DNA of 32,447 nt from Chromera velia (lineage: Eukaryota > Sar > Chromeraceae). Location: contig JAHBMJ010000200.1 in assembly GCA_018398765.1 (NCBI GenBank), forward strand, positions 1-32,447, read 5' to 3'. The stretch's first letter is position 1; the number at the start of each line of letters is the position of its first letter. The position numbers and the translations under genes are program-made. Below are positions 20,629 to 32,447 of the stretch, one piece after another. The notes below the pieces were generated by a model. That model was not told where the DNA came from. It did no database searches and worked only from the letters and a program-made list of their open reading frames with translations.

Positions 20629-20686
20629 ATGAAACTCTTCCGTCCCTTCGCTCAGGCCTGTTTCTTGGCGTTCATCGGATTGACAG
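20629..20686 (+). CDS. Exon 1: hydrophobic leader
   Basis: ATG at 20629 opens 19 codons with a basic start and a hydrophobic stretch (CFLAFIGLT), typical of a signal peptide, though short. It ends ACAG followed by GCAAGT, a GC-type donor, in phase 1, and joins to the first EGF exon (phase 1) as T-A-DVDEC. A pyrimidine tract ending in CAG (20609-20620) just upstream may mark a 5' UTR intron. Confidence 0.5.
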
Positions 20687-29600: not shown

Positions 29601-32447
29601 ACCGTTTATAGGTGGGAGTAAGATAATGACAGATTTGGCCCCAAGCGCCTTCTGAAAAATCGAAAAAGGTTTTGTTGGCTCTTCAGTCGTTTGGCACTCT
29701 AAAGCAATCTTGGTGGATGCGAGTTTGCCTTTCTCCTGTCCATGTAACTTGAGGTGCACCGACTTTTTCACAACATGTGAATCGAGTTTGCTTGCTCTTC
29801 CTTTCTTCTTGCATGCAGATCGCCTATCTGTTCCCTGTGAGCTTTTCATGGGCTCTGTTCCTCGTTTCCCTTGCGTTGCTGTTTTTCGTGATCTCGTCTG
29901 CTTTCATCGGTGAGGGGGAAAGGAGGGACTTCGTGCGTATGACTTGTCTCTGGACTATGATTTCGATGCATTGTTCGCTTTTTGCTTTTCTTCTTGTGTG
30001 CGCCCCATTTTTTGGCCGGACAGGGGGGGAAGGGGTTGTCGTACAAAGAGTAGGTGAACAGAAGGAGCCAGAGAGAGAGTGGGCATTCACGCACTCTAGG
30101 ACTTAAAAAAACCCCGGAGAAAGTACGGCTGTGATCATTCCTTCGAGTGCTCAGCCGGGCCTTGGTGGTCTCTCTTTTCGTGCAAGTCAATTTATTTGCG
30201 CGGGCATGAACCATTGTTTCTCTTGACACTTGCCTTCTCTTCCTTTTCTGGCTCTTCTCCCCATCATGGTCTCTGCAGCTCGCTTTGTTCTTGTCGAGAT
30301 GCTCTGGAGTCTCCATGGTGAACTCTGTGCGAAGCTTCGTGAGATAGAGCAACAGGAAGATGACCGAGAAGTTGAGAGTGAAGAAAAGGAAGCAATCGGA
30401 GACGAAGGAAGAGAGGAGAGGGTTGAAAAAAAGAAAAAAACAAAACGTCCGAAAGGATGTCGTTCCCTTTGGGTTTCCTTCCAAAGGTTTTTTTTTCAGA
30501 CCCTCCTATGGTCTGTCGGCAGGCTGCAGCCCTCGCGGCTCGACGTGGTCATCCTCCTCCCCCCTCGCTCAGAGAGTCTAGAGGGTCGAGGCGCATTCGA
30601 ACTTTTCGTCCGAGAAGACCGGAAGAATCAAGAGGGGCGTGCAGCAGAAAGACAGAAGAAATTTACGCAGGAGGCGGGTGCGGTTAGACAGACGTTTCGA
30701 GCTCTGGTCATGAAACGTCAATTGACTCAGCGCCCATCGGCAAGAGTGAGAAGGGAAAGACTGCGAGCGGCAGCTGCCTCAAGAGAATGGAACGAGTTCA
30801 CCAGCGAAGTCTTCAGCTTCTCCCAGGTCAGTATAAGGATTTCTATTTTTGTGTCGATCGTCTCTCATGTGAATGTTAACCAATGTTTCTATTGTATATG
30901 GTCCCAGTATTCAGATTCATTCAATTCTAGACATGCGAATGATCGCTTTGTAATGTCTTGGCCATCTGATGAAGAAGGAAAGTATGAGAAATGCGCCGAT
31001 TTGATGTCGAAACCTGTACCAGTTAACAGGATCTTTTGTTCTCTCTCTCGGCTTAATTCCTGCTTCTCACTGACTCTCTGCATGGACTTGCAAGTGAAAC
31101 TACCTAGGTCGGGGTGGTCATGTTGGCGCTACGTGGCAGTCAGGCAGGCAAGTAGGCAGTCGGTCAGATAGTCAGCCAGCTGCTAAAATGGTCGGTCGGT
31201 CGGTCAGTCAGGCAGTCGAGCAGTCAAGCAGTCAGGCAGTCAGGCAGTCAGGCAGAGGCTCACGTGGAATCTTAGCTGGAGGTGTTGCTTTTCTGAGAGA
31301 TTTGAATCTGAAGTGAAAGGGAATAATTTTGTCCCTTCCACGGCTGCCATTTCTCTCTGTTTACGTTCTCTGTCTCTCTGTCTCTCTCTCTCTCTCTCTC
31401 TCTCTCTCTCTGTGTGTGTGTGTTTGTGTGTGTGTGTGTGTGTGTGTGTGTGTGTGCAGACTGTTCAGCAGACAGAGGCGGCCCTTTTAAACGACGGGAA
31501 TCAGCCCGCGAAGAACTCGCAAGGAATGGGCGTGGTAGTTCCAAAAAGTGAGAGAGAAAAAGAAAGAGAGAGAACTCGTGGCAAATCCCGAAAGGCAGCT
31601 GTCCGGGGCCCCTCTGGCGTCTCTGCCGACGGAAGTTTGTTGGCGGACGCCCCCCTCCCTCTGTTTCTGGACTTTGCCTGTCGGGCCTCTCTCCTCTGTC
31701 TTGACCGCGTCAAGGGAAAAACGGAAAGACTCCGGTCGGTTGCGTGGTCGCTGGAGGGGAACTAGCTTCCAAAACAGACAGACTCACAGGGAACCCATGC
31801 AAGACAGACGTATGCATTGGGTCGATCGTTGAAGCGGGTACTCTCTTTGACTGACTTTACAGCTGCTGCTAACCTATGCGACAGGCACAGCACGCTCAAA
31901 TAGTAAAAACTGCTTTGGGACATACAGAAGAGCAAAAGAAGAATCGCCTCCTCCTTGCATGTATCCACGGGATTGAGACCTGACTGCATACACCTTTTTG
32001 CCAGCAAGTCGACGCCTTGCTCTGCAAAGAAGAATTAAAAATTAAATGCCATTTTCCTGCTCCTATCCTTTTGACGCTTCTCCTTTTCCATTTCTGGATC
32101 ACTGCAGGAGGGCAGCGCAGTTTCATCATCTTGGAGAGTTAAGAGACCTTGGGCTGGAAATTGTGACTGGAATTGACTTTTTTGGAGACACGGGGGGGGA
32201 GGGGAGGGATGAGGACCCTTTTGTGTTTCGACTAGTCATGGACCCTGTCGGCACCCTTGGGGAAGCAACAACGAGAAGAGGGAACAGAGAAAGGAAGGCT
32301 CAGAAGCAGGAGAGACAAGAAAAGGCGAAAGCTGCAGGGGAAAAGATGTATGAGGAATTGGTGGGAAAAGTTTGGAGTACACCAGAAGACGTTCCTTTCT
32401 TAGATTTGAGGACCGTTCTCTCGACTCTGCTCCGCTTCATACTCTCT
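20629..32447 (+). CDS. EGF/HYR polytopic membrane protein, at least 20 exons, 3' end outside the window
   Basis: Proposed exons: 20629-20686, 20962-21066, 21515-21637, 21890-22021, 22825-22953, 23371-23633, 24007-24088, 24591-24891, 25272-25554, 25789-25992, 26225-26368, 26729-26994, 27179-27872, 28155-28273, 28491-28730, 29100-29361, 29819-29909, 30279-30826, 31460-31734, 32108-32447. They sum to 4659 nt (1553 codons) with every phase matching. Order: hydrophobic leader (MKLFRPFAQACFLAFIGLT); EGF modules; two HYR domains; Cys-rich stalk; about nine hydrophobic segments from residue ~585 to ~1165; charged cytoplasmic stretches. EGF and HYR modules are extracellular adhesion or ligand domains, so the N-terminus should be outside. 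The membrane part contains FAFWEAVLVVRK and a later AAWPYQ...NWAEAW pattern like polytopic (TRP-like) proteins of protists. It is a surface receptor, adhesin or channel; the exact function is unknown. Confidence 0.75.
21342..21475. repeat. Compound (TG)n(TC)n(TG)n(GA)n(CAGA)n microsatellite
   Basis: Five adjacent simple-repeat blocks lie in the intron between EGF1 and EGF2. It yields spurious Cys/Val/Ser ORFs. Confidence 0.95.
22022..22560. repeat. Complex CTGT minisatellite in the EGF3-EGF4 intron
   Basis: Begins as GTCAGTCAGTCAGTCAC at the donor, then blocks of (CTGT)n alternate with a purine-rich unit containing ATTCGGAAAAAGTGAAGTGA (for example 22220-22243 and 22345-22368) followed by ATATAGTCTGT. 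It looks like repeated duplication of a unit plus its microsatellite. Confidence 0.85.
23371..24088 (+). other. Truncated EGF fused to HYR domain 1
   Basis: Exon 23371-23633 starts PDFNEC...CVNTQGSFEC, an EGF that stops after four Cys, and runs straight into PSIKCPSEPVKV, the opening of a HYR (hyalin) repeat. Exon 24007-24088 finishes it with SESVSVTATDSVGGSASCFLLVSVE, the typical HYR end. The HYR fold is a beta-sandwich adhesion module. Confidence 0.75.
24591..24891 (+). other. HYR domain 2
   Basis: Opens with EAPRVVCPSAL and closes with SDSSGNVGECSFLVSVEL, both standard HYR landmarks (D..PP.I.CP and D..GN...C.F.V.V). The exon ends DCGC and runs in phase 2 into the Cys-rich stalk. Confidence 0.75.
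24990..25217. repeat. (CTGT)n and (GA)n microsatellites in intron
   Basis: Two runs, (CTGT)n at 24990-25041 and (GA)n at 25175-25217, lie in the intron before the Cys-rich exon. Confidence 0.9.
25272..26368 (+). other. Cys-rich ephrin-receptor-like stalk and first membrane segment
   Basis: Exon 25272-25554 has NGFYRDLDAS...CRGCP, CSCAEGFYFVPAP and GGECRACPKDADC, the spacing of ephrin-receptor/GCC2-GCC3-type repeats. Exon 25789-25992 leads to CTEGNRG, joined at 26225 to PLCNECVRGYRRVGEELPC, then CAKCPEVG and the first membrane helix LNLLILSALVTGLFLLVLFYF. The junction between 25489 and 25789 is ambiguous: an alternative leaves exon 8 at 25489 and adds a small exon 25664-25725 (FSPVGTVALIPREMEATYTY), which also keeps frame. 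Confidence 0.65.
28731..29099 (+). other. Intron with an open frame that is skipped in the model
   Basis: The donor is GTCAGTCAGTCAGTCAC and the acceptor TGCAG at 29095-29099. Splicing gives QNALG-YTLAGYRQEF in frame. An open stretch at 28891-29040 could be read as an exon but its ends fit no phase, so I leave it out. Confidence 0.5.
29389..29421. repeat. (GA)n microsatellite
   Basis: GA-rich run just after the donor of the intron following exon 29100-29361. Confidence 0.9.
31137..31257. repeat. (GGTC)n/(AGGCAGTC)n-type minisatellite
   Basis: Tandem GTCAG/GGTC units (for example CAGTCAGGCAGTCAGGCAGT) in the intron between 30827 and 31459. Confidence 0.85.
31371..31457. repeat. (TC)n(TG)n microsatellite adjacent to an acceptor
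   Basis: The TG run ends directly in the acceptor TGTGCAG at 31459, so the repeat supplies the pyrimidine/GT-rich tract for the exon starting at 31460. Confidence 0.9.
31460..32447 (+). CDS. Last two visible exons (cytoplasmic part), open at the window end
   Basis: Exon 31460-31734 begins TVQQTEAALLNDGNQPAKN and ends in phase 2 (L-R) at donor GTCGGT. Exon 32108-32447 continues R-AAQFHHLGELRDLGLEI and DPFVFRLVMDPVGT, then a basic coiled-coil-like stretch, and is still open at the final base. Hydrophilic, cytoplasmic by topology; no domain recognised. Confidence 0.6.

Follow-up and report, generated by a model that had tools for sequence, protein, structure and literature searches.

We wanted to know what kind of protein is encoded at the end of a 32,447-nucleotide stretch of Chromera velia DNA (assembly GCA_018398765.1). 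This stretch, called the window below, consists of bases 1-32447 of contig JAHBMJ010000200.1, which is 54155 bases long. A preliminary description had proposed that a single reading frame of more than 1550 codons joins EGF, EGF-HYR and HYR modules and an ephrin-receptor-like stalk to a channel- or receptor-like multi-pass core. We consider it rather probable that the locus is one C. velia gene for a plasma-membrane receptor from a lineage-expanded family of the type of the cysteine repeat modular proteins (CRMPs). The ectodomain of EGF, HYR and stalk modules would lie outside the cell, followed by a core of about nine helices, and a long loop and the tail would lie in the cytosol.

The gene model was assembled by hand. 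In its final form the receptor gene comprises 20 exons on the + strand, which extend from 20629 up to the end of the window and together contain 1553 codons without a stop; this bears out the single long frame. The junctions are in phase in 19 of 19 cases, with 17 GT-AG introns and 2 GC-AG introns (20687 and 26995). EGF exons 2-5 measure 105, 123, 132 and 129 nt, all divisible by three, and are phase 1-1 modules, as had been described. The gene is cut short: beyond position 32447 the contig continues with approximately 5 kb of N, in which the end of the tail is lost. A candidate exon at 28890-29005, part of an earlier 21-exon model, was dropped from the final model because its in-phase use (29005 to 29114) destroys the L-x-GY motif with which the sixth transmembrane helix (TM6) starts in the family. 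Exon 15 joins in phase directly to 29100 and this motif is preserved. A weak match to MTES_1575 (0.0017, below cut-off, obtained with the earlier model) overlapped the dropped exon and was not used.

The encoded protein begins with a predicted signal peptide, which is followed by calcium-binding EGF modules (five), HYR modules (two) and a cysteine stalk; about nine helices and a predicted cytosolic tail make up the remainder. The Pfam scan of the whole protein was made on the slightly longer version from the 21-exon model. It identified EGF_CA (9.2e-34, 5 stretches), EGF_3 (8.9e-13), cEGF (5.2e-11) and HYR (4.2e-8, 2 stretches), all over their cut-offs. The EGF and HYR modules of the preliminary description were thus recovered, and the failure of profile matches that it had named as its refuter did not occur. 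Neighbouring domains are linked within single exons, namely EGF 5 with HYR 1 in exon 6, HYR 2 with the stalk in exon 8, and the stalk with TM1 in exon 11.

The proposed identity of the stalk did not hold. Ephrin_rec_like (PF07699) was not matched by the whole protein at E≤1, nor at E≤5 when the stalk was scanned by itself, and since no match to this domain was significant we rejected the ephrin-receptor-like assignment. HMMER filters discard most matches above about 0.1, which bears on such negative results for weak matches. The best Pfam match of the stalk was DUF7630 (0.0035), followed by DUF7631 (0.2), both below cut-off. Among family members, PF07699 was matched weakly in 4 of 15 (best 0.022). 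The C-x2-C...C-x2-C linker that leads into TM1 is invariant in 15 of the 15 rows of alignment A2. A literature search found no mention of DUF7630 or DUF7631, and among the papers listed for polytopic GCC2/GCC3 proteins none concerned this family by its title.

Helices were called from hydropathy with a threshold of 0.85. There were ten peaks in the core. Nine of them were read as helices, and the remaining one, which is proline-rich (0.91), was taken for a loop. The tail has three weaker peaks (1.02, 1.23 and 1.27), read as not membrane-spanning. A multi-pass core of the kind anticipated is supported. In partial frames of four paralogs we counted between 9 and 11 peaks. The tail after TM9 has at least 388 aa, with its end inside the N run. 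Because the number of helices behind the signal peptide is odd, we infer a cytosolic position for the tail and also for the long charged loop that follows TM3. When the profile of TM6-8 (A1) was compared with the 227 frames of the window, the receptor frame scored 108 bits and the next best 4.5. Among solved structures the TM6-8 profile had no relative; the TM1-3 profile (A2) matched three EphA4 sequences at 0.087 to 0.48. Two single-protein scans gave no viral homologues.

We then asked how common this architecture is in the C. velia genome (177.8 Mb in 4040 contigs), which was searched with two stretches of the core at E≤10. There were 27 places for TM1-3 and 55 for TM6-8, including those of the window. 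HYR was detected at 50 places at E≤0.001, which form 32 contig-and-strand loci; the HYR domains of the window are not among them. In 25 of these 32 other HYR loci a same-strand core place lay at most 15 kb downstream, while a core place upstream or on the other strand within this distance was found in 0/32. When core places were restricted to E≤0.012, the downstream arrangement was present in 17/32 loci. Counted by contig, 53 of the 4040 carry the core, and these include 25 of the 32 that carry HYR (P 3e-44). An EGF_CA place lies within 20 kb upstream in at least 13 of the 32 HYR loci, as judged from the 150 of 1350 EGF candidates that were scored and listed.

Individual paralogs carry the same links. 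In paralog L070 (C193) a continuous open frame covers the region that starts within exon 9 (aa 453) and reaches exon 12, with 27% identity (2e-28, gapped), and its frame upstream of the stalk contains HYR and Sushi over cut-off and an EGF-like match below it. In paralog L071 the HYR exon ends in a similar stalk start. The recurrent order of HYR and core, together with the HYR/Sushi frame of L070, therefore indicates that the architecture recurs in this genome as a theme with shuffled modules. The combination had been called unusual, which does not agree with its presence at 25/32 loci or with the CRMP expansion already published for Chromera (passages of PMC9815656).

DUF7631 gave 15 genome matches at E≤1, and by eye 7 of these are followed downstream by a same-strand core place (C3633, C2998, C3486, C772, C864, C3750 and C686). 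Strong DUF7631 matches (down to 3e-14) were also seen on C2560, C3242 and C1192, which are not in the core list and perhaps represent a subfamily with the same stalk. At C3943:41536-45757 six HYR matches stand in a row on one strand with no downstream core match; this is perhaps an incomplete family member or else a HYR protein that is secreted. The phase of EGF exons was also tested across the genome, with criteria too strict to be useful: there were 7 matches, 4 in phase 1 (two of them from the window) and 3 with other spacing, of which at least one (C3575) is inside a longer open frame.

The known proteins that resemble this architecture most are the CRMPs, those of Tetrahymena more distantly. 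As described in passages of PMC9815656 and PMC9670195, the CRMPs of Toxoplasma and Plasmodium have nine helices, an external N-terminus and internal C-terminus, EGF-like and ephrin-receptor-like modules and long tails (478 and 565 residues in T. gondii), and TgCRMPA and B are required for rhoptry discharge. Passages of PMC9815656 also note "many diverse CRMPs" in Chromera, for which the authors propose environmental sensing. The window protein shares with TgCRMPA/B and PfCRMP1-4 the EGF-like, cysteine-rich modules placed directly before the helices, the long C-terminal tail (at least 388 aa) and, as predicted, the N-out/C-in orientation; it also belongs to a many-copy family, as is reported for CRMPs in Chromera. 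It differs from them in its EGF_CA arrays and HYR, with Sushi in a paralog, as the CRMP modules given in these passages are Kringle, C-type lectin/MAR, EGF-like and others. This topology, these modules and the published Chromera expansion, rather than the sequence of the core, suggest to us that the window protein belongs with the CRMPs.

Expansions are also documented for extracellular module proteins of Chromera and Vitrella in PMC4501334, whose Appendix 5 lists EGF, Sushi, TSP1 and vWA; the section in question does not include HYR. The words CRMP, ephrin and GCC2 have 0 occurrences in the main text of PMC4501334, and HYR, hyalin and Sushi have 0 occurrences in that of PMC9815656. No paper among the matches listed dealt by its title with HYR in chromerids or apicomplexans.

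Several points weigh against our explanation. The gene model was derived from genomic sequence. The helix count combines hydropathy with judgement, given ten core peaks and three weaker ones in the tail, and helix number is not fixed across CRMPs, because those of Tetrahymena are predicted to have five (passages of PMC9670195). Kinship to CRMPs is argued from topology, modules and a published statement rather than from a comparison with CRMP sequences, and neither HYR nor Sushi is among the CRMP domains in the passages of PMC9815656 and PMC9670195. Further, 7/32 HYR loci have no core match and 28/53 core contigs have no HYR match; some cores therefore have different ectodomains or belong to loci that are incomplete.

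The most likely function of such a protein would be to mediate adhesion at the cell surface or to sense the environment, with signalling from its cytosolic side. A ligand, a surface contact or a pull would act on the rod-like ectodomain outside the cell, and the stalk would transmit this event to the membrane core. The event in the core could then be read out on the cytosolic side by the tail or an ion path, as has been proposed for apicomplexan CRMPs in rhoptry discharge, and the cytosolic signal might lead to extrusome release. How CRMPs relay contact to exocytosis is an open question; the authors of PMC9815656 state that attempts to find signalling molecules downstream of CRMPs were unsuccessful. 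Dozens of such receptors in a relative that is photosynthetic and free-living would offer a harmless comparative system for CRMP signalling, and the Chromera family would reveal the ectodomain modules of such receptors outside parasites. The kind of receptor and its expansion in Chromera are already known. The part that could surprise is a channel-like core, which, if true, would provide a testable mechanism (Ca2+ entry).

We compared the core with the fungal TRP/FLC family (PF06011, curated cut-off 28.5 bits), as a check for TRP-like (transient receptor potential) signatures had been proposed. TM6-8 of the core members matched PF06011 in 7/22 cases at E≤1 (best 3.7e-4), while the reversed core members gave 0/22. 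Exon 16 of the window scored 0.013 (14.8 bits, profile 285-353). One of four long cores had a match at E≤1 (C3287, 2.9e-4, profile 193-349 of 426); the other three, including that of the window with its loop trimmed, had none. In the whole genome PF06011 was found at 8 places at E≤10. Five of these are on core loci, and no place in the genome exceeded the cut-off, the best being 25.2 bits at C12.

Two of the remaining places, C12:51111-51332 (L074) and C106:35655-35861 (L075), lie outside the listed core loci, also fit the profile of the core and are perhaps plainer relatives of TRP-like type. With core profile A1 they scored 14.8 and 13.1 bits, respectively. None of their scored shuffles exceeded them (0/485 and 0/492 of 500 made each, highest shuffle 9.7); their reversed copies reached 1.6 and 4.5 bits, and other window frames 4.5 at most. 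The PF06011 register of the window exon, C12 and C106 agrees within two residues (profile offset 280-282). At the third place off core loci, C252, it is another part of the profile that is matched. Channel families of the animal TRP and PKD types (Ion_trans, PKD_channel) gave no match at E≤1 in protein or family scans. Thus the TRP question was answered in part, by a weak and consistent PF06011 match in part of the family and by no match of the animal type.

The similarity of TM6-8 to PF06011 likely reflects distant homology and not family membership. A possible, rather doubtful, alternative is that the core acts as a channel, or a channel sensor, of a distant TRP/FLC type, in which the ectodomain would gate a cation path, probably for Ca2+, through the last helices and turn contact into a Ca2+ signal. 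The forward and reversed counts, the C3287 core, the five genome places on core loci and the nearly common register of C12 and C106, above all scored shuffles, argue for it. However, nothing reaches the 28.5-bit cut-off, one long core in four is matched, good coverage is restricted to helices 6-8, the TM6-8 profile has no solved-structure match, the animal-type TRP and PKD families are not matched, and FLC homology would not demonstrate conduction. Fungal TRP/FLC proteins resemble the window protein in having a multi-pass core behind an N-terminal ectodomain, besides the weak, register-consistent similarity in helices 6-8; their N-terminal domain, in contrast, is ML-like (PF14558; passages of PMC9600462) instead of EGF/HYR, and the similarity is below the family cut-off. 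Among the literature matches listed, no paper had both CRMP and TRP terms, and "transient receptor potential" and "ion channel" are absent from the main text of PMC9815656 and PMC9670195. We regard as still more speculative, and unlikely, the extension that a divergent cation channel of TRP/FLC type forms the core of this family, and by implication that of the CRMPs required in rhoptry discharge, and that the dozens of Chromera members, with EGF, Sushi and HYR ectodomains, are contact- or ligand-gated environmental sensors.

It appears improbable that the protein is instead an adhesion receptor resembling G protein-coupled receptors (GPCR), with a core that is a divergent signaller of the seven-helix type acting through G proteins. 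TgCRMPa and PfCRMP1 have been termed GPCR-like in print (passages of PMC9670195), and the solved structure that best matches the ectodomain is that of the EGF array in the adhesion GPCR ADGRE5 (5.4e-26). NELL, uromodulin, Notch and fibrillin were matched too, so the ADGRE5 match marks the module and not the protein; EGF arrays are common to many proteins. The window protein shares tandem calcium-binding EGF modules with ADGRE5 (CD97) and other animal EGF-array proteins, whereas its membrane part has no above-cut-off similarity to seven-helix receptors and about nine helices rather than seven. No GPCR profile exceeded its cut-off on the core, where we detected weak matches in TM1-3, to NCD3G in 2/15 members (best 0.06) and to 7tm_3 in 1/15 (0.0087). 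These are not specific, because JAMP, an unrelated membrane family, fits the same stretch better (4/15, best 4.2e-4; 0.0018 in one paralog). The JAMP and 7tm_3 matches therefore call for caution about any single weak match, TRP included.

That two adjoining genes are present, an upstream one for a secreted EGF-HYR protein and a downstream one for a separate multi-pass protein, is very improbable, as the introns between exons 8 and 9 and a model built from genomic sequence leave room for it but all junctions are in phase, HYR and stalk share exon 8, stalk and TM1 share exon 11, the L070 frame runs across exons 9-12, and HYR precedes the core in 25/32 other HYR loci and follows it in 0/32.

Table. 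Exons of the C. velia receptor gene in the window (aa, amino acid positions in the protein).
Feature	Positions	Strand	Encoded part	Match or remark
Exon 1	20629..20686	+	Start codon and signal peptide (MKLFRPFAQACFLAFIGLTA)	Peptide and cleavage site by inspection only; then GC-AG intron
Exon 2	20962..21066	+	EGF module 1, phase 1-1	Pfam EGF_CA; genome scan match 20964-21056
Exon 3	21515..21637	+	EGF module 2, phase 1-1	Pfam EGF_3 best stretch aa 60-95
Exon 4	21890..22021	+	EGF module 3, phase 1-1	EGF_CA best stretch aa 97-139; genome scan match 21892-22020
Exon 5	22825..22953	+	EGF module 4, phase 1-1	Among the 5 EGF_CA stretches
Exon 6	23371..23633	+	EGF module 5 and beginning of HYR 1	Both inside a single exon
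Exon 7	24007..24088	+	Remainder of HYR 1	One of 2 Pfam HYR stretches
Exon 8	24591..24891	+	HYR 2 and start of cysteine stalk (CPSNSERVNADGDCGC)	HYR 2 at aa 298-379, Pfam HYR best stretch
Exon 9	25272..25554	+	Cysteine-rich stalk	DUF7631 0.2; paralog L070 alignment
Exon 10	25789..25992	+	Stalk	Paralog L070 alignment
Exon 11	26225..26368	+	C-x2-C...C-x2-C linker and TM1	DUF7630 0.0035; alignment A2; hydropathy
Exon 12	26729..26994	+	TM2 and predicted extracellular loop	Hydropathy, alignment A2; then GC-AG intron
Exon 13	27179..27872	+	TM3 and most of long charged loop, predicted cytosolic	206 aa to next helix
Exon 14	28155..28273	+	TM4	Hydropathy
Exon 15	28491..28730	+	Loop cysteine and TM5	Hydropathy
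Exon 16	29100..29361	+	TM6, TM7 and most of TM8	Conserved GY...WE...RK...PY...N...E, distantly TRP (PF06011)-like; alignment A1
Exon 17	29819..29909	+	End of TM8 and TM9	Hydropathy
Exon 18	30279..30826	+	Cytosolic tail	No Pfam match
Exon 19	31460..31734	+	Cytosolic tail	In-frame stop at 31763 unless spliced here
Exon 20	32108..32447	+	Cytosolic tail, open at window end	N run next in contig

The introns of the receptor gene contain tandem repeats with di-, tetra- and octanucleotide units (TG, GTCT, TGTC, GA and CAGTCAGG), located at 21343-21424, 22257-22330, 24990-25042, 25176-25216, 31205-31255 and 31411-31456. Approximately 500 bp upstream of the gene and divergent from it are two opposite-strand frames, 17258-19651 (-), which is proline/serine-rich with 797 codons, and 19623-20123 (-); neither has a Pfam match. 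The same is true of a serine/lysine-rich open frame of 684 codons at 2407-4461 (+).

Further genes of the genome agree with C. velia as its source. We observed 58 light-harvesting (LHC) matches; a comparison with solved light-harvesting proteins did not decide the species. There were also three DCX loci, and in 3/3 of them a p25-alpha piece is present just upstream on the same strand. These pieces are short, with E values of 8.8e-8 (C2621), 0.0085 (C2966) and only 0.56 (C620). According to passages of PMC7048138, the pairing of DCX with p25-alpha is almost exclusive to apicomplexans and also occurs in their relatives; Chromera velia (CvDCX1-3) and Vitrella have three such genes each.

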